Assembly: GCA_013824615.1 (NCBI GenBank)
Contig: PNOC01000035.1
Location: 1 to 37,890, forward strand
DNA: 37,890 bases
Direction: 5' to 3'
Source: Thermodesulfovibrio sp.
GTDB taxonomy: Bacteria > Nitrospirota > Thermodesulfovibrionia > Thermodesulfovibrionales > UBA6898
Shown: positions 11,414 to 37,890 of the stretch, in pieces
Layout of the letters: the number at the start of each line of letters is the position of its first letter
How positions within the stretch are numbered: the stretch's first letter is position 1
Made by a program: the position numbers and the translations under genes
Notes under the pieces: generated by a model
Databases searched by the model: none
Seen by the model: only the letters and a program-made list of their open reading frames with translations
Told to the model about the DNA's origin: nothing

Positions 11414-12666
11414 TAAGCTGCACCCTCCTTGCCACACTGAAATTTTACCAGTATTTTCTGCTGTGCTTCAGCCTTCAGCACGATCTCTTCAATGTCCTCG
11501 GCCGAACTGGCCTCGACGACCGCTGCAGTGACAGCCAGCTCAAAGCATTCGTCAGCTCCTATTTTGGCCCGCGCCACAGACTGAATTTCCGGCAGGGCCT
11601 TCTCCAGTTCCTTGGCTATGTCCTGCACCAACTGCCCGGCCTCTTCAGGGCTCAGGCGGGGCAGGATCGTGAGAATCTTGTCCCTGCTATGGCGTGCCGA
11701 AAAGCCGCCAATCGGGCCGAAATAGTTATTGATATGCTCTCCGAGGATCTTGAGGACCTCTATGGCAGCCTGCGGCCAGAGCAGGTCGGCCAGAAGGTCA
11801 AACTCGACACTGAAGAGTACGGCGGTGATCGTGGTGTCAGGCTGTCCGCCTCCCATAGAGAGAGCATAGCGCGATCTGAACATCTCTTTTGAGAGCAGAC
11901 CGGTGAGTTCGTCTCTGAGTCCCTCGATGCTCCTGAGAAATTCATCCATCATGGGATGCTTCACCTTTGTCAGTTCCTCGTAGGTCCCGTGAAAGCCGAT
12001 CTTCCCCTCCCAGAGGAGGAGTATACGGTCGGAGATGAAGAAGACGTCGGGGATGTCGTGACTGATGAGAACAGCGGTAAACCCGAACTGCTTCCGGTAA
12101 TGGGCGATCATGCTCAGAATGATGTTTTTTCTGATAGGATCCTGTCCCGTTGTCGGCTCGTCAAAGAGTACAATGGCCGGGTCGGTCACGAGAGCCCGGG
12201 CAAGGGCCACGCGCTTCTGCATTCCGCCTGAAAGCTCTGCCGGGTATTTCCGAACAACGTCCGTGAGTTCCATCTGTGCGAGCCTGGACATAACCTTCCG
12301 CACGATTTCCTTTTTCCTGAGATTCGTCTTCTGTCTGAGCGGAAGGGCTATGTTTTCGAAGACCGACATAGAGTCGAACAGGGCATTGTTCTGGAACATA
12401 TAGCTGATCTTGCTCCGGTACTCGTCCCATTCGCCCTTCTTCATGCTCTCAACAGGTTTACCCCTGAAGAGTATGCTGCCCTCATCAGGGGAGAGGAGCC
12501 CGATAATATGCTTCAGGAGAACACTTTTGCCGCTGCCGCTCTTGCCGATGATCGTTGTAACCTGTTTTTCGTAGATCATGAGGTTCGCCTTGTCGAGAAC
12601 CGTTTTCTCGTCAAAGCGCTTGGTGACATCCCTGAATTCTATTAAAGGTGTTTCCATCGTCTCCAT
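11413..12666 (-). CDS. mlaF: MlaF-like ABC ATPase with C-terminal degenerate GGDEF-like domain
   Basis: Residues 1-245 are a complete ABC ATPase: Walker A GKSGSGKS (41-48), Q-loop MFQNNALF, signature LSGGM (145-149), Walker B IVLFDE (165-170) and H-loop His203. MlaF powers phospholipid transport through MlaE. Normal MlaF ends near residue 270, but this protein continues to 417. The extra part begins RDELTGLLSKEMF (251-263), which mirrors the DxLTGLxNRRxF start of GGDEF domains. It continues with VLFSVEFDLLADL, AIEVLKILGEHI, and ARHSRDKILTILPRLSPEEA (324-343), where HSRDK stands where GGDEF would be. The active-site residues are therefore lost, so no cyclic-di-GMP synthesis is expected. The domain could sense a nucleotide or hold subunits together. 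mlaE and mlaD overlap it at each end. Confidence 0.93.
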   Translation of the reverse strand: METMETPLIEFRDVTKRFDEKTVLDKANLMIYEKQVTTIIGKSGSGKSVLLKHIIGLLSPDEGSILFRGKPVESMKKGEWDEYRSKISYMFQNNALFDSMSVFENIALPLRQKTNLRKKEIVRKVMSRLAQMELTDVVRKYPAELSGGMQKRVALARALVTDPAIVLFDEPTTGQDPIRKNIILSMIAHYRKQFGFTAVLISHDIPDVFFISDRILLLWEGKIGFHGTYEELTKVKHPMMDEFLRSIEGLRDELTGLLSKEMFRSRYALSMGGGQPDTTITAVLFSVEFDLLADLLWPQAAIEVLKILGEHINNYFGPIGGFSARHSRDKILTILPRLSPEEAGQLVQDIAKELEKALPEIQSVARAKIGADECFELAVTAAVVEASSAEDIEEIVLKAEAQQKILVKFQCGKEGAA

Positions 12667-13463
12667 TACATCAGGAATGAGGTCACAACATAGTCAGAGA
12701 CCAGGATCGTGACACAGGAGTAAACCACTGCCGTGGTGGTCGAGATACTGACACTCTTTGCCCCGTAGCTGTCAGTACGCAGGTGGGTGAAATAGCCCTG
12801 GAAGCAGCAGATCGTCGCCACGAGCACCGCAAAAACGAGCGATTTGATGAAGCCGCCTCTGATGTCGACGATATCCACATACTCGCGGATGCGGTAGAAG
12901 TAAGCGCCTTTATCCACGCCCAGGAGGACAACGCCGGTGAGATACCCGCCCAGGATTCCCATCAGGTCAAAAAAGGCTGTCAGCAGGGGGAAGCTGATGA
13001 TTGCTGCTGCCATCCGGGGACTGATGAGATACCGAAGGGGGTCGATCCGCATGGTATACAGGGCATCGATCTGCTCGGATATACGGAGTATACCTATCTC
13101 TGCCGTCATGGCAGATCCGGCCCTGGCAGTAATCATGATCGCGGTCAGGACAGGCCCCAGTTCCCTGATGAGGGTCAGTGCGACAACAGAGCCGAGCACA
13201 CCCTGTGATCCGAATTTTACCAGGGTGTAATAGAGCTGCAACCCCAGGACCATGCCGGTGAAGAGGCCGACGAATAAGACGATCGTCGATGACTTTGCGC
13301 CGATATAAAAGACCTGCTGGATGATCTCCCTGAGCTGTTTGGCACGAAAGATCTTCAGAAAAGAGAGAGAGAAGAAGATGGCTCCGGCGCCGAGGCTGTT
13401 TATAATGTTCATCACCCTTTTACCGATAAAATGGAAAAAGGCAAGGGGTGAACTGTTTTTCAT
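12666..13463 (-). CDS. mlaE: MlaE-like permease
   Basis: Membrane permease of the Mla phospholipid transporter, with five or six helices and the family hallmarks LTLIRELGPVLTAIMITARAG, EIGILRISEQIDAL, and the C-terminal TTTAVVYSCVTILVSDYVVT. The frame extends upstream to 13568, but the first 35 residues of that longer version are unlike the family. The ATG at 13463, or one at 13475, is more likely, though neither has a strong ribosome-binding site. The stop codon overlaps the mlaF start by one base (TAATG). It heads the minus-strand mla operon and is divergent from the FecR-type gene, with about 150 bases between them. Confidence 0.93.
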   Translation of the reverse strand: MKNSSPLAFFHFIGKRVMNIINSLGAGAIFFSLSFLKIFRAKQLREIIQQVFYIGAKSSTIVLFVGLFTGMVLGLQLYYTLVKFGSQGVLGSVVALTLIRELGPVLTAIMITARAGSAMTAEIGILRISEQIDALYTMRIDPLRYLISPRMAAAIISFPLLTAFFDLMGILGGYLTGVVLLGVDKGAYFYRIREYVDIVDIRGGFIKSLVFAVLVATICCFQGYFTHLRTDSYGAKSVSISTTTAVVYSCVTILVSDYVVTSFLM

Positions 13464-13589
13464 GGTGGATTCCATAGTATTGCTATTGTATCCCTTTTTT
13501 CCCTTTTCGACAAATGGTGTTGAAGGACGGGCGAAACAAACGAGCGGCGTGGCCGAAGATTCCTTCAATATCTCTTCACAAAAAGCTGT

Positions 13590-13595
13590 TATAAT
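13590..13595 (+). promoter_or_regulatory. Consensus -10 box before the FecR-type gene
   Basis: TATAAT lies 25 bases before the ATG at 13621. No matching -35 at 16-18 bases upstream was found. A strong GAGGAGGA ribosome-binding site follows at about 13609-13616. Confidence 0.4.
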
Positions 13596-13620
13596 AGGCC
13601 AATAATTTGAGGAGGATCAA

Positions 13621-16056
13621 ATGAAAATCGTTAAAGCACTATTAGTCGTGATGAGTCTGGCTCTGCTGCTTCCGGTATCCGTCTTCGCTGCGGACTCCAT
13701 GTATATGCGGATAAGTTATGTTGCAGGAGACGTTCAGGTGCAGACCCCTGACGCGGACGAGTGGGGTTTTGCCTCGGTAAACGCCCCTCTGGGGGAGGGA
13801 GATCAGGTCTGGGTCCCTCAGGGAGGGCGGGCGGAACTCCAGCTGAGTTCAGGGTCTTTTATCAGGCTGGACCAGAATTCGGCGCTCCAGATACTCTCCC
13901 TGGAAGACGGCTCAACACAGTTCCATCTTTCTCAGGGATCGGCCTATGTTGTCTTTGATATAGCCAAAAAGGGCGGTGTTATTCAGGTAGATACCCCTGA
14001 TGCCTCTACCCGCGCCTACAAACGGGCGATATTCAGGATAGATGTGTCAGCCCAGTATACGGACGTGGCTGTCTACCGCGGGTCGGTTGAGACCGAGAAC
14101 GGGGTAGGTTCAATCAAAATAAGAAAGAATCAGATGCTCACGCTGGCACAGGACAGTGACGGCGAGGTTGCGCCGATGGGACCTGCTGATGAATGGGAGC
14201 AGTGGAATAAGAACAGAAACGACAGAATGTCTGAAATCGCCGACGGAGGCAGCCGTTATCTTCCTGAGGAACTCCGTTCATATGCCGCCGATCTCGACAG
14301 CAGCGGGAAATGGGTCAGGGTTCCTGAGTATGGCTATGTCTGGACCCCTGCAATAGCTGTCGGCATAGACTGGGCCCCCTACCGGGATGGCAGGTGGGTA
14401 TGGAGACATGGCGAATATATATGGGTTGGGCATGAAGCCTGGGGCTGGGCACCCTACCATTACGGCAGATGGGCGCATGTCCCCCGGGTGGGATGGTGTT
14501 GGGTGCCTCCGTCAAAGGGCCAGGTCTACTGGGGCCCCGGATATGTCGGCTGGGTCAGGACGGAGGAATATGTAGCATGGGTCCCCCTGGCACCCCGGGA
14601 GATCTATTACGGTCGCGGTAATTACGGACGGCATAGTGTCAATATCACAAAGGTGAATGTCAATCAGGTCAATATCACCAACGTCTATAAGAACATACAT
14701 ATTAACAACGGGGTGACTGTGGTCAACCGCAATACCTTTAATTCGGCCACACCTGCTTTTGTCAATATCAATAAGAATGACCTTCAGCGAAAGATATTTG
14801 TGAAAAGTAATTTTGTTGCCGGAACACATGATATTAAGCCGGGCAAGGCAAGCTTTTTTGACATGGTTAAGCCGGGAGCCAGGGTCCATCAGCCGCCTCA
14901 GGCCGTAAGAAATGTGATGGTCAGAGATTTGAAACAGGCTCGGCCATTCACGAAAGATGCAGCCAGATCTGTCATGAACCCCGGAGTTAAGCCGGCGCTG
15001 CTGCCGGTCAATACCATTACAAAGCCCAGGGAACCGGGCAAAGAGAGGCCGATCATGCAGCCGATCGGGGTCACCCCAAAAGGGCCGGTCGCAATACCTG
15101 AAAGGGTTCGGACACCACGGACAATTGAGCTGGGAGCAAAAGAGCAGAAGAGGCCAATAGAGCAGCCGAAGGGGCAGCCTGTAGAAAAAGACAAAGGCAG
15201 AATCATGACCCCGATCGGCACTCCGGGCAGTAGTCCTGTAATTAAAGACGACAGACCGGGCGTAATCCCCGATCGGAGAATAACAGGCCCTCAGGGGACG
15301 ATGCCAACCCGCGCACCTGAACAAAAAACCATTGAACAAAGAGCAATTGAACAAAAGAAAATTGAACAAAGAATTAAGGAGCAGAAGACAATTGAGCAGC
15401 CGAAGGGGCAGCCTGCAGAAAAAGACAAAGGCAGAATTATGACCCCGATCGGCACTCCGGGCGGCAGCCCTGCGGTAAAGGACGACAAACCGGCAGCAAA
15501 ACCCGATCGGAGAATAACAGGCCCTCAGGGGACGATGCCAACCCGTGCCCCGGAACAAAAAACCATTGAACAAAGAGCAATTGAACAAAAGAAAATTGAA
15601 CAGGGAATTAAAGAGCAGAAGACAATAGAACAGCCGAAGGGGCAGCCTGTAGAAAAGGACAAGGGCAGAATTATGACCCCGATCGGCACTCCGGGCGGCA
15701 GCCCTGCAGTAAAGGACGTCAGGCCGGCAGTGAAACCTGACCGGAGGACAACCGGTACTGAGGGAACACCGTCACCACGCACAATTGAGCAGCCCAAAAG
15801 TCAGCCGCTAAGTCAGCCTCAGGGTCAGGCAGCGGAAAAAGACAAAGGCAGAAGCGTTACACCGATCGGCAGTCCTGCAATAAAGGACGACAAGCCGGTA
15901 GTGAAACCTCCGGTCAAGCCGGTTGATAAAGTAAAGCCGGTCGTTGTTCCTCCGGACTCTAAGCCAAAGGATGCCAAGACTGAGGAAAAAAAGAAGAAGG
16001 ATGATGACACTGAAGGGGTGATGGCACCGATCGGTGTCCAGAGGAAGGCGCGGTAA
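13621..16056 (+). CDS. Exported FecR-domain / DUF6600-like envelope protein with long repeat tail
   Basis: 811 residues. A signal peptide (VKALLVVMSLALLLPVSVFA) leads into a FecR-like domain (about 30-170; YVAGDVQVQ, GGRAELQLSSGSFIRLD, KKGGVIQVDTPDA). Then comes a Trp/Tyr/Pro-rich region (about 225-330) with units such as YGYVWTP, WAPYRDGRWVW and WGWAPYHYGRW, typical of proteins annotated FecR plus DUF6600. Next is an Asn/Val-rich stretch that may form a beta structure. From about residue 450 to the end it is a low-complexity Gln/Lys/Pro tail with long near-identical repeats. No outer-membrane anchor or sortase motif is seen. It lies between two oppositely oriented MCE transport operons, and its tail runs toward the second one. 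A periplasmic or surface-linked structural role is inferred; function is unknown. Confidence 0.85.
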   Translation: MKIVKALLVVMSLALLLPVSVFAADSMYMRISYVAGDVQVQTPDADEWGFASVNAPLGEGDQVWVPQGGRAELQLSSGSFIRLDQNSALQILSLEDGSTQFHLSQGSAYVVFDIAKKGGVIQVDTPDASTRAYKRAIFRIDVSAQYTDVAVYRGSVETENGVGSIKIRKNQMLTLAQDSDGEVAPMGPADEWEQWNKNRNDRMSEIADGGSRYLPEELRSYAADLDSSGKWVRVPEYGYVWTPAIAVGIDWAPYRDGRWVWRHGEYIWVGHEAWGWAPYHYGRWAHVPRVGWCWVPPSKGQVYWGPGYVGWVRTEEYVAWVPLAPREIYYGRGNYGRHSVNITKVNVNQVNITNVYKNIHINNGVTVVNRNTFNSATPAFVNINKNDLQRKIFVKSNFVAGTHDIKPGKASFFDMVKPGARVHQPPQAVRNVMVRDLKQARPFTKDAARSVMNPGVKPALLPVNTITKPREPGKERPIMQPIGVTPKGPVAIPERVRTPRTIELGAKEQKRPIEQPKGQPVEKDKGRIMTPIGTPGSSPVIKDDRPGVIPDRRITGPQGTMPTRAPEQKTIEQRAIEQKKIEQRIKEQKTIEQPKGQPAEKDKGRIMTPIGTPGGSPAVKDDKPAAKPDRRITGPQGTMPTRAPEQKTIEQRAIEQKKIEQGIKEQKTIEQPKGQPVEKDKGRIMTPIGTPGGSPAVKDVRPAVKPDRRTTGTEGTPSPRTIEQPKSQPLSQPQGQAAEKDKGRSVTPIGSPAIKDDKPVVKPPVKPVDKVKPVVVPPDSKPKDAKTEEKKKKDDDTEGVMAPIGVQRKAR
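15163..15720 (+). repeat. 234-bp coding tandem repeats in the FecR-type gene
   Basis: The block starting CAGCCGAAGGGGCAGCCTG recurs at 15163, 15397 and 15631, giving an exact period of 234 bases (78 residues). There are two full copies and a partial third. Copies are near identical at the DNA level, which indicates recent duplication or ongoing conversion. The encoded unit contains KGQP, EKDKGRIMTPIGTPG, DRRITGPQGTMPTRAPEQ and a run of IEQ triplets. Confidence 0.85.
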
Positions 16057-16077
16057 CAAAAGGTAAAGGCAGAAACA

Positions 16078-16170
16078 ATGGCCGGGGAAATGACCGGGGA
16101 AATGACCGGGGAAATGACCGGGGAAATGACCGGGGAAATGACCGGGGAAATGGTCCATGGAGTGACGTGA
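16078..16170 (+). CDS. Tandem-repeat mini-ORF (MTGE units) coupled to mlaE2
   Basis: A 30-residue open frame starts at ATG 16078, 22 bases after the FecR-type stop. It is made of repeated Met-Thr-Gly-Glu units and ends Met-Val-His-Gly-Val-Thr. Its TGA (16168-16170) overlaps the GTG start of the next mlaE by four bases (GTGA), the usual signature of translational coupling. An AAAGG lies upstream. Each 12-base unit also supplies a GGGGAA followed by ATG, so ribosomes could enter at several points. Whether a peptide is made or the frame only delivers ribosomes to mlaE2 is not known. I do not recognise any family. Confidence 0.5.
   Translation: MAGEMTGEMTGEMTGEMTGEMTGEMVHGVT
16081..16152 (+). 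repeat. Six tandem copies of a 12-bp unit (ACCGGGGAAATG)
   Basis: Six head-to-tail 12-base units; the first starts with G instead of A and the other five are identical. The unit length is a multiple of three, so copy-number change would keep the mini-ORF frame. The array sits immediately before the mlaE2 start. Confidence 0.95.
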
Positions 16171-16931
16171 AAGTAAAGCAGCTGGTAAGCGACTTGCAGG
16201 ATTATTACCTCCTGTCTGTGCAGGGACTCCTCGGCATGGTCAGGAGGCCTTTTTATTTCAAGGATGCGATCTTCCAGATGGAATACGCCGGGGCCGGCTC
16301 ACTGGTGATTGTGTTTATCGTCAATCTTTTTGTGGGCATGGCCCTCTCGCTGCAGCTTTCTGCAGAGCTTTCCAGCCTGGGGATGAAGATGTACATCGGC
16401 ATGATCGTCGGCATTTCAGTTGTACGGGAACTCGGCCCGGTGGTCACGGCCCTTGTCTTTACCGGTCGTGTCGGGGCAGGCATGGCCTCGGAACTGGGCT
16501 CGATGGTCCTTGGGCATCAGGTCGATATGATACGGGTCTTCGGGTTTGACCCGGTGAAGAAGCTTGTCACACCGAGGATCGTGGGTTCACTGATCATGCT
16601 GCCGGCGCTGACGGTCATCGGCGTGGCGGTTTCCCTTCTCGGCGGCTATTACATAGCTGTTTTTGTGGGTCATCAGAGCGCAGCGGTATACTGGACCTCA
16701 ATCCGGAATATCCTTACGATGGAAAATGTCCTTGCCGGGGCGATTAAGCCCTTTGTATTCGGGGTTATTATTTCTACGATATGCTGCTACATGGGCCTTT
16801 CGACCAAGGGAGGGTCTGTCGGCCTCCGGCGATCGACAACTACGGCGGTTGTGCTTTCGATTGTGATGATTATCATCTCTGACTTTATGCTCACCAGAGT
16901 GCTGCTTTATCTCTTGGGGTTTTCGGTATGA
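16167..16931 (+). CDS. MlaE-like permease, second set
   Basis: A second MlaE-family permease, 254 residues. It has the family core VGISVVRELGPVVTALVFTG, RVGAGMASELGSM and the C-terminal RRSTTTAVVLSIVMIIISDF. It starts with GTG at 16167 overlapping the stop of the repeat mini-ORF. Its own stop overlaps the next ATG by four bases. Compared with the MlaE at 12666 it has a Met-rich N-terminus and differs in the EIG/ELG loop (ASELGSMVLGHQVDMIRVF), so it is a divergent paralog and not a recent duplicate. It is expected to form the inner-membrane channel with the ATPase and MCE protein encoded next. No MlaC or MlaA partner follows, so the substrate path may use the long MCE protein or share the other operon's carriers. 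Confidence 0.93.
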   Translation: MKVKQLVSDLQDYYLLSVQGLLGMVRRPFYFKDAIFQMEYAGAGSLVIVFIVNLFVGMALSLQLSAELSSLGMKMYIGMIVGISVVRELGPVVTALVFTGRVGAGMASELGSMVLGHQVDMIRVFGFDPVKKLVTPRIVGSLIMLPALTVIGVAVSLLGGYYIAVFVGHQSAAVYWTSIRNILTMENVLAGAIKPFVFGVIISTICCYMGLSTKGGSVGLRRSTTTAVVLSIVMIIISDFMLTRVLLYLLGFSV

Positions 16932-17677
16932 TCGTATTCGACGATGTCACCTTTTCCTATGGAACGCGGAATATCCTCAGCAATGCAAGTTTTTCGTTCA
17001 GGTTTGACGAACGGGTGGCTGTCCTCGGCGGCAGCGGTGAGGGCAAGACTACTATCCTGCGCCTGATCCTTGGCCTTATCAGACCCGACAAGGGGAAGAT
17101 ATTTGTCGATGGTGAGGACATCACCGGCAAGAAGGAAGAGGAGCTGCGGGAAGTCAGGATGAAGTTCAATATCGTGTTTCAGGAAGGCGCTCTTTTTGAT
17201 TCTCTGAACGTAAAGGAGAATGTCGCCTTCTGTCTGAGGGAATACACAAAGATGTCAGAAGCCGAGATTGATGTGCGGGTGCGGGAGATACTCGGCACCG
17301 TGGGGGTGGAGCAGGCACTGGAACTCATGCCTGAAGAACTGAGCGGCGGCATGCACCGCAGGGTCTCCCTGGCACGGTCGCTGGCCCTGAGTACTCCAAG
17401 TATGTTCCTTTACGATGAACCGACAACCGGACTGGACCCGATAAACGCGGACAACATCTGCAGGCTGATTGCAGACCTTTCCAAAGACGGGAAAGGTCTC
17501 ATCATGGTCACCCATAAGGTGAGCGATGCCATGAAAGTTGCTGAGAGGTTTATGTTTCTGAAAAATGGCAGTGCGATCTTCGACGGCAACCGGAAGGAGC
17601 TGCTCCAGTCCGATATTGCCGAGATACAGGCGTTTGTCAGCGAAGTCGGTTTCCATAATACCGCAGATATTTCATGA
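16928..17677 (+). CDS. MlaF-like ABC ATPase, second set
   Basis: A standard-length (249 residues) MlaF-type ATPase. Visible motifs are Walker A GGSGEGKT, Q-loop VFQEGALF, signature ELSGGMHRRVSLARSLA, Walker B MFLYDEPTTGLDP and the H-loop VTHKVSDAM. Unlike the MlaF at 11413 it has no C-terminal extension. It overlaps mlaE2 by four bases (ATGA), and 23 bases separate it from the MCE gene. It energises the second MCE transporter. Confidence 0.94.
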   Translation: MIVFDDVTFSYGTRNILSNASFSFRFDERVAVLGGSGEGKTTILRLILGLIRPDKGKIFVDGEDITGKKEEELREVRMKFNIVFQEGALFDSLNVKENVAFCLREYTKMSEAEIDVRVREILGTVGVEQALELMPEELSGGMHRRVSLARSLALSTPSMFLYDEPTTGLDPINADNICRLIADLSKDGKGLIMVTHKVSDAMKVAERFMFLKNGSAIFDGNRKELLQSDIAEIQAFVSEVGFHNTADIS

Positions 17678-17700: not shown

Positions 17701-18762
17701 ATGTTTGATCTGAAAAAACAGCTCCGGTGGGCAGAGATGAAGGTTGGCGTTATCATATCGCTCGCTCTGGTTATTCTTTTTTTAAGTGTCTTTTTCGCAG
17801 GAAGCATTGAGAGGATGATCCATCCCAAGGTCAAGATAAAGGCCGCGATAGCTGATGTGAAGGGTTTGAAAGGCGGGGCGCCGGTCTGGGTCTACGGGCT
17901 TGAAGAAGGGACGGTGACCGATATCAGCCTTGATCCGACCTATGGGACGGTTGTTACCATCTCGATCTACAAAAACGTCCTCGGGTATCTGAAAAAGGAT
18001 TCAACGGCAAGCGTACTGACTATGGGGCTCCTGGGGGATAAATATATAGAGCTGACGCCGGGCGCCTCGGGGGCCGAACCCCTGAAGGCAGGAGACATGA
18101 TCCGGGGGACAACCCAGCTTGATATGAAAGATGTTATGGAAACAGGAGCTTCCTCGATCAAGAAGATCAATGACTTCATAGAGAAAATGGGCAACCTTGT
18201 CCAGAAGATAGAGACGAGCAAAGGGACGCTCGGCATGCTGATTGAAGATCCCACCCTGTACGACAATCTCAAAAAGTCTGCGGCGCACCTCTCCAACATC
18301 ACCAGGGAGATAGAAAGCGGCAAGGGTACGCTCGGCAAACTGGTGAACGATCCATTGCTCTATGAGAATCTGGCGTCCACGTCGAAATCCCTTGAGGGCT
18401 TCAGCCGGAAGCTCGAAAAAGGGACCGGGACGCTGAACAAGCTGATCGAAGATGATCACCTCTATACCCGGCTTTCGGGGGCAGCGACTTCGATGGATGA
18501 ATTCGGCAAAAAGCTGAATAAATCCTCAGGGACGCTCAACAGGCTTATTGAAGATCCGGAGCTTTATGAAAACCTCAACAGTGCGTCCAAACGTATTACC
18601 TCTATTTTGGAGCGGATTGACAAGGGCGAGGGGACTGCCGGTCTGCTGGTCAGGGATGATGAGCTGTCTCTTGAGGTGAAAGACACGGTCAAACAGCTCA
18701 AAAAGCTTATGGAAGACATCCGCGAGCAGCCGAAGAAGTATTTCAAGTTCAGTATTTTCTAG
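17701..18762 (+). CDS. Long MlaD-like MCE protein with five 34-residue repeats
   Basis: 353 residues; GAGGAGGA ribosome-binding site before the ATG. An N-terminal helix (VGVIISLALVILFLSVFFAG) anchors it in the inner membrane. One MCE domain follows (about 43-140; VKGLKGGAPVWVYGLEEGTV, TMGLLGDKYIELTPG). Residues 175-344 consist of five consecutive repeats of exactly 34 residues. Each begins GTLGxLIxDPxLYxNL and continues with an amphipathic helix of the type SxLEGFSRKLEKG. The last copy is the most divergent. The protein ends Lys-Lys-Tyr-Phe-Lys-Phe-Ser-Ile-Phe, an aromatic end seen in MlaD-type MCE proteins. The repeat may form a periplasmic rod or helical bundle extending from the MCE ring. 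Confidence 0.93.
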   Translation: MFDLKKQLRWAEMKVGVIISLALVILFLSVFFAGSIERMIHPKVKIKAAIADVKGLKGGAPVWVYGLEEGTVTDISLDPTYGTVVTISIYKNVLGYLKKDSTASVLTMGLLGDKYIELTPGASGAEPLKAGDMIRGTTQLDMKDVMETGASSIKKINDFIEKMGNLVQKIETSKGTLGMLIEDPTLYDNLKKSAAHLSNITREIESGKGTLGKLVNDPLLYENLASTSKSLEGFSRKLEKGTGTLNKLIEDDHLYTRLSGAATSMDEFGKKLNKSSGTLNRLIEDPELYENLNSASKRITSILERIDKGEGTAGLLVRDDELSLEVKDTVKQLKKLMEDIREQPKKYFKFSIF

Positions 18763-37091: not shown

Positions 37092-37890
37092 ATGAGGGGA
37101 AAAGTTTTTTTCTTAGTCTTTTTTTGTTTAGTGGTGTTCTTTACAGCATCTCTGACTCATGCAGCTATGTATGTTTCAAATGCTAACAACAACGGCGATA
37201 TCAATAGCATCGTAACTTGGCCTAATAACACCACAGGCAATACTGCACCGACAACAGCTATCATCGGCAGCTTTACTACCCTTAGCGGTCCTTTTGGGGT
37301 GGCAGTGGATGCGAACCAGATTTATGTGGCTAATGAAACGGGCAGCAGCATTCTTGTATTTTCAAAAGAGGACACAGGCAATACTTCGCCTACGCGCACG
37401 ATCAGCGGCGGCCTTACTACCCTTAATGGTCCTGCAGGGGTGGCAGTGGATGAGAACTGGATTTATGTGGCCAACAGAAACAATAACAGTATACTTGTAT
37501 TTCCGAAAAACGCCACAGACAATACGTCACCCACTCGCACGCTTAGCGGCGGCCTTACTACCCTTAATGGTCCTACAGGGGTTGCAGTGGATGCGAACCG
37601 GATTTATGTGGCCAACAGTAACGATAACAGTATACTTGTATTTCCGAAAAACGCTATAGACAATACTTCGCCCACCCGCACGCTTAATTTCCTTTCTACC
37701 GTGAATTTTCCGCTAGGGGTCGCAGTGGATGCGAACTGGATTTATGTGGCTAACTTTGGGAACAGCAGTATACTTGTATTTCCAAAAGACGACACAGGCA
37801 ATACTTCGCCTACGCACACGATCAGCGGCGGCCTTACTACCCTTAATCGTCCTACAGGGGTCGCAGTGGATGCGAACTGGATTTATGTGG
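37092..37890 (+). CDS. Secreted NHL-like beta-propeller protein, 3' end outside window
   Basis: An open frame from ATG 37092 to the window end, with no stop, so the gene is truncated by the window. A signal peptide (VFFLVFFCLVVFFTASLTHA) precedes repeated propeller-type units of 47 residues (141 bases). Each unit carries GVAVDANWIYVAN, then NSILVFPK and then NTSPTRTISGGLTTLNGP. Five copies are at least partly visible and the DNA is nearly identical between several of them, which suggests recent duplication. Such NHL/SBBP-like proteins are exported or surface-exposed binding proteins; a ligand cannot be named. Upstream, a near-consensus promoter and a good ribosome-binding site support the start. 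Confidence 0.85.
   Translation, partial: MRGKVFFLVFFCLVVFFTASLTHAAMYVSNANNNGDINSIVTWPNNTTGNTAPTTAIIGSFTTLSGPFGVAVDANQIYVANETGSSILVFSKEDTGNTSPTRTISGGLTTLNGPAGVAVDENWIYVANRNNNSILVFPKNATDNTSPTRTLSGGLTTLNGPTGVAVDANRIYVANSNDNSILVFPKNAIDNTSPTRTLNFLSTVNFPLGVAVDANWIYVANFGNSSILVFPKDDTGNTSPTHTISGGLTTLNRPTGVAVDANWIYV

Follow-up and report, generated by a model that had tools for sequence, protein, structure and literature searches.

The window (the whole stretch of 37,890 nt analyzed here) contains two mla operons with a gene of a different family between them. The lipid-transport permease gene mlaE2 (16167–16931, plus strand; Pfam: PF02405, E-value 7.8e-67, with matching relatives) is of the MlaE family and is the first gene of the mlaE2-F2-D2 operon. 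Its start is backed by alignment of the N-terminus with relatives, and a Shine-Dalgarno-like GGAG (16159–16162, plus strand) lies 4 nt before its GTG, a spacing near the mode of this genome. The ABC ATPase gene mlaF2 (16928–17677, plus strand; PF00005) overlaps the end of mlaE2 as ATGA, and the MlaD/MCE gene mlaD2 (17701–18762, plus strand; PF02470) follows. The other MlaE permease gene, mlaE1 (12666–13568, minus strand; PF02405, syntenic in the congeneric genomes G001 and G002), is the first gene of a second, divergent mla operon. Between the two operons lies a FecR/DUF6600 gene (13621–16056, plus strand; PF20245 and PF04773), which is absent from this site in G001 and G002. It encodes an 811 amino acid protein with a repeat-rich tail and ends in a TAA at 16054–16056.

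Directly before mlaE2 there is a tandem array of 12-bp units (16078–16152, plus strand). Tandem Repeats Finder (TRF) reports it at 16077–16152 with a period of 12, 6.3 copies and 98% matches. A pattern search places exact copies of ATGACCGGGGAA at 16090, 16102, 16114, 16126 and 16138, so that the perfect units span 16090–16149; they are preceded by ATGGCCGGGGAA (16078–16089), which has one mismatch (ATGGCC), and followed by an ATG. The array of six 12-bp units described in the first-pass annotation is therefore real, but it consists of five perfect copies and one variant. Its head-to-tail, near-identical units exceed what chance would give and are those of a minisatellite, and five identical units are what is expected of a recent expansion. 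In 438 kb of the genome, made up of the window and a 400-kb sample of 20 contigs, it is the top short-period array: it scores 143, and the runner-up, located in the adjacent gene, scores 63. As a tandem, the motif occurs at a single locus in its own genome, and we reject a dispersed element on this ground.

Tandem repeats are also abundant in the 3' half of the DUF6600 gene, which adjoins the array. They include a 234-bp repeat (15139–15746; 2.6 copies, 89%) and 15-bp IEQ-type repeats (15318–15370 and 15553–15602). At the other end of the window, a 141-bp coding tandem repeat (37232–37890) runs off the contig end; from its consensus unit we take the recurring motif “GPTGVAVDAN..YVAN” to be beta-propeller-like.

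Because the length of the 12-bp unit is divisible by three and no stop occurs in this frame, the array forms a putative mini-ORF (16078–16170, plus strand; 30 codons, MAGE(MTGE)5MVHGVT*) between the DUF6600 stop and the mlaE2 start. It begins 21 nt past the DUF6600 stop, and every internal ATG of the array runs in the same frame to a single TGA at 16168–16170. As had been proposed, and as sequence and coordinates confirm, this stop overlaps the mlaE2 GTG (16167–16169) as GTGA, sharing two bases, which places the end of the mini-ORF at −4 nt to mlaE2. The mlaE2–mlaF2 junction is likewise a −4 overlap by its coordinates. The predicted product is close to the (Met-Thr-Gly-Glu)n peptide described before: it contains five MTGE units, but the first unit reads MAGE and the tail is MVHGVT.

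How much weight can this reading frame bear? Read from its sequence, the unit has no stop in five of its six frames, and an uninterrupted mini-ORF therefore does not count as evidence for coding. The GTGA merely requires an A as first base of the second mlaE2 codon (here AAA, Lys) together with a one-in-three match of frame, and −4 overlaps evolve easily for a like reason (PMC12548453). Any 12-bp unit also preserves the frame, functional or not. We regard the mini-ORF and its overlap as suggestive and not as strong evidence. On the other strand, where the repeat reads as His-Phe-Pro-Gly, we agree with the initial view that it is less likely to matter: the antisense HFPG ORF (15808–16158) has no support and is mostly antisense to the 3' end of the DUF6600 gene.

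The neighborhood in related genomes points to the origin of the spacer in which the array lies. The mlaE1 and mlaE2 operons stand side by side and point away from each other in the congeners G001 and G002, and only in the present species does the DUF6600 gene stand between them; its homologues in the family sit elsewhere in their genomes. Together these observations argue that the DUF6600 gene was inserted between the two operons here. (In a third congener, G003, DUF6600 is present as three paralogues, and a close mlaE2 is lacking.) The gap regions compared were 13475–16166 of the window, 6903–7095 of L047 and 5374–6056 of L046. About 190 bp separate the operons in G001, and in G002 the gap holds a different ORF of approximately 160 amino acids with its own terminator-like hairpin. 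The gap appears to be a repeated insertion site in the genus, empty in G001 and occupied by a small ORF in G002 and by FecR/DUF6600 here. An assembly chimera is unlikely because the expected mla neighbors flank the insert on both sides.

Local alignment also identifies a conserved, promoter-like segment, TATCTCTTCACAAAAAGCTGTTATAATA, just before the DUF6600 gene (13569–13597 within a few bases, plus strand). The segment (TATCTCT..AAAAA.CTGTTATAATA) lies between the operons in G001 and directly before DUF6600 here, and its alignment score of 35 against G001 was reached by none of 200 shuffles. Relative to the insert, the conserved TGTTATAAT segment has thus remained with mlaE1. From 15700 to the mlaE2 start, spacer included, we found no terminator-like site and, with a simple promoter model, no promoter-like site.

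We examined how widely the array is distributed. A close mlaE2 is present in 23 of 60 related genomes, and none of these 23 carries the array upstream of it. None of the 60, four congeners among them, contains the two-unit pattern, in a comparison set with one genome per species; a conserved regulatory element can thus be rejected. Over 18 comparisons with other mlaE2 leaders, the spacer gave only matches of 11–12 nt (AAAGGCAGAAA), which are unconvincing as homology. The sole exact two-unit match in the collection of genome contigs is in a metagenome-assembled genome of Clostridia (L032), within an open coding region that presumably belongs to an SbcD-type nuclease gene, as we read the sequence, and we take it as an unrelated coincidence. 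Viral contigs gave no match to the array, and the array region matched no Rfam family.

We conclude that ordinary slippage most likely produced the array and that its tiny reading frame is incidental. We assign a probability of roughly 0.6 to the reading that it is a species-specific minisatellite that arose by slippage in a young spacer and has no copy-number function. Insertion of the FecR/DUF6600 gene between the two divergent operons would have left a 110-bp spacer before mlaE2, within which the 12-bp unit would have expanded by replication slippage. The promoter-like segment, which precedes mlaE2 in a congener, now precedes the DUF6600 gene, so transcription of mlaE2FD probably depends on read-through from that gene. 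Translation of mlaE2 would begin at its own GTG using its own GGAG, and some ribosomes may cross the mini-ORF as a passive bridge; copy number is unlikely to set the output of mlaE2. What counts against this reading is that the top short-period array of 438 kb coincides precisely with a start codon, in the favored −4 overlap. Chance alone would give such a placement with a modest but appreciable probability, one in three or so for the frame and less for the position.

The main rival is that the mini-ORF acts as a translational bridge, handing ribosomes to mlaE2 by termination and reinitiation at GTGA. The ribosomes would be those terminating at DUF6600 21 nt upstream or would initiate on the mini-ORF itself, and copy number would be of little matter. 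Such a bridge would restore coupling over a 110-nt spacer that is otherwise too long. Coupled translation works efficiently at distances of −4 to +3 nt, and most of it is gone past 30–40 nt (PMC12548453). By these trends, the two steps of 21 nt and −4 nt permit coupling, while a direct gap of 110 nt would not. The spacer has no terminator, the same −4 overlap is used within the operon at mlaE2–mlaF2, and the mycobacterial interspersed repetitive units (MIRUs) provide a natural precedent. However, there is no conservation to indicate selection, the first ATG at 16078 has a weak Shine-Dalgarno (at best −2.6 kcal/mol at the usual spacing), mlaE2 has its own, and the frame would agree by chance one time in three. 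We consider the bridge rather unlikely on balance. Of the translational coupling claimed in the first-pass annotation, the −4 nt geometry is real, but the copy-number rheostat attached to it is unsupported.

In that rheostat, each unit would be a separate ribosome entry site, and gain or loss of units would tune mlaE2 without a frameshift. The unit length does keep the frame, and all the internal ATGs lead to the TGA at the mlaE2 start. More protein is made from engineered leaders that carry several ribosome-binding sites (PMC9723656), which makes such a device feasible in principle. In Moraxella, tandem repeats in the 5' UTR of uspA1 and of another surface-protein gene influence expression (PMC4679880).

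The Shine-Dalgarno and RNA-structure models tell against it. The GGGGAA and ATG of each unit had been put forward as an entry site, but the GGGG lies 2 nt before the ATG, a spacing at which GGGG occurs in none of 290 sampled genes of this genome; in the same sample, GGAG, GAGG and AGGA peak at 4–7 nt before the start. A leader with several ribosome-binding sites would have a Shine-Dalgarno at a productive distance in each repeat, and with the canonical anti-Shine-Dalgarno assumed, the array does not, its spacing being 2 nt throughout. At the usual spacing, the simple model with this anti-Shine-Dalgarno gives −2.2 kcal/mol for the array ATGs and −2.6 kcal/mol for the first one, and −5.9 kcal/mol for the GGAG of mlaE2 at 4 nt. 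The canonical sequence was assumed because the 16S tail of the genus is unreadable: a 16S rRNA gene was found in none of the five genus assemblies (G000–G004), and such absence is common in draft metagenome-derived genomes. Across arrays of 1 to 13 units, the predicted energy for opening the mlaE2 start stays at 10.6–10.7 kcal/mol, so predicted accessibility is flat with copy number, and the region shows no unusual RNA folding (z = −1.56).

Neither model supports copy number as a control. The idea that copy number tunes how many ribosomes reach the mlaE2 GTG has against it an unused spacing, a separate Shine-Dalgarno for mlaE2, flat predicted accessibility and an array confined to one species; copy-number variation itself is an assumption. 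Nor is there a sign of a contingency-locus system, as had been suggested, since no other comparable array occurs in the 438 kb. We regard the rheostat as improbable. Its fullest form, a natural non-frameshifting rheostat in which a variable array with an in-frame start per unit formed after an insertion cut the permease from its promoter, we likewise hold to be improbable.

Scarcely credible is a last reading, in which the array would be a C-terminus that the DUF6600 protein has lost: the frame of 16078 is that of 13621–16056, one TAA apart, and the protein tail is repeat-rich, but most inspected homologues have K/R directly before the stop (RRR*, KKR*, QQR*, NFR*, RAR*, QQK*) as this protein does (KAR*), so that the TAA appears native and the array no part of the protein, and none of the inspected homologues has an MTGE tail.

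If a bridge or rheostat did work here, it would mean that a genome can repair or tune translation by slippage alone after a gene is inserted before an operon. As it stands, the array is a repeat confined to its lineage, and its geometry is suggestive. We see it mainly as a cautionary example of how cheaply G-rich tandem repeats yield open frames and Shine-Dalgarno-like letters.

The array can be compared with several known systems. MIRUs have units of approximately 50–100 bp, and at some loci their tandem copy number is variable. They are the nearest natural precedent: in the MIRU of senX3-regX3 of mycobacteria, for example, an intergenic repeat carries a small ORF that is coupled to the next gene at −4 nt (PMC12548453). 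The mini-ORF of the array also overlaps a downstream start at −4 nt (GTGA, 16167–16170). However, MIRUs are longer, apparently mobile and dispersed at many loci, whereas the 12-bp unit is found at one locus in one species. The AGAT case in Moraxella is that of uspA2. In Moraxella catarrhalis, uspA1 and uspA2 resemble our locus in having a tandem repeat between the promoter and the start of an envelope-related gene; their poly-G and AGAT tracts have shown variation and effects on expression (PMC4679880), while the array is translatable. The TAACTGA repeats of Beggiatoaceae are also short direct repeats right upstream of start codons with an inferred function (PMC4679880), but they number well over a hundred sets in one genome, in contrast to the single array here, and their 7-bp unit contains stops and overlaps the Shine-Dalgarno, which is intact before mlaE2. 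Finally, the array resembles the bacterial minisatellites (variable number tandem repeats, VNTRs) in its short, perfect head-to-tail units, its restriction to one lineage and its place in a spacer, and it differs from an ordinary one in its position at a start codon and in having an open frame.
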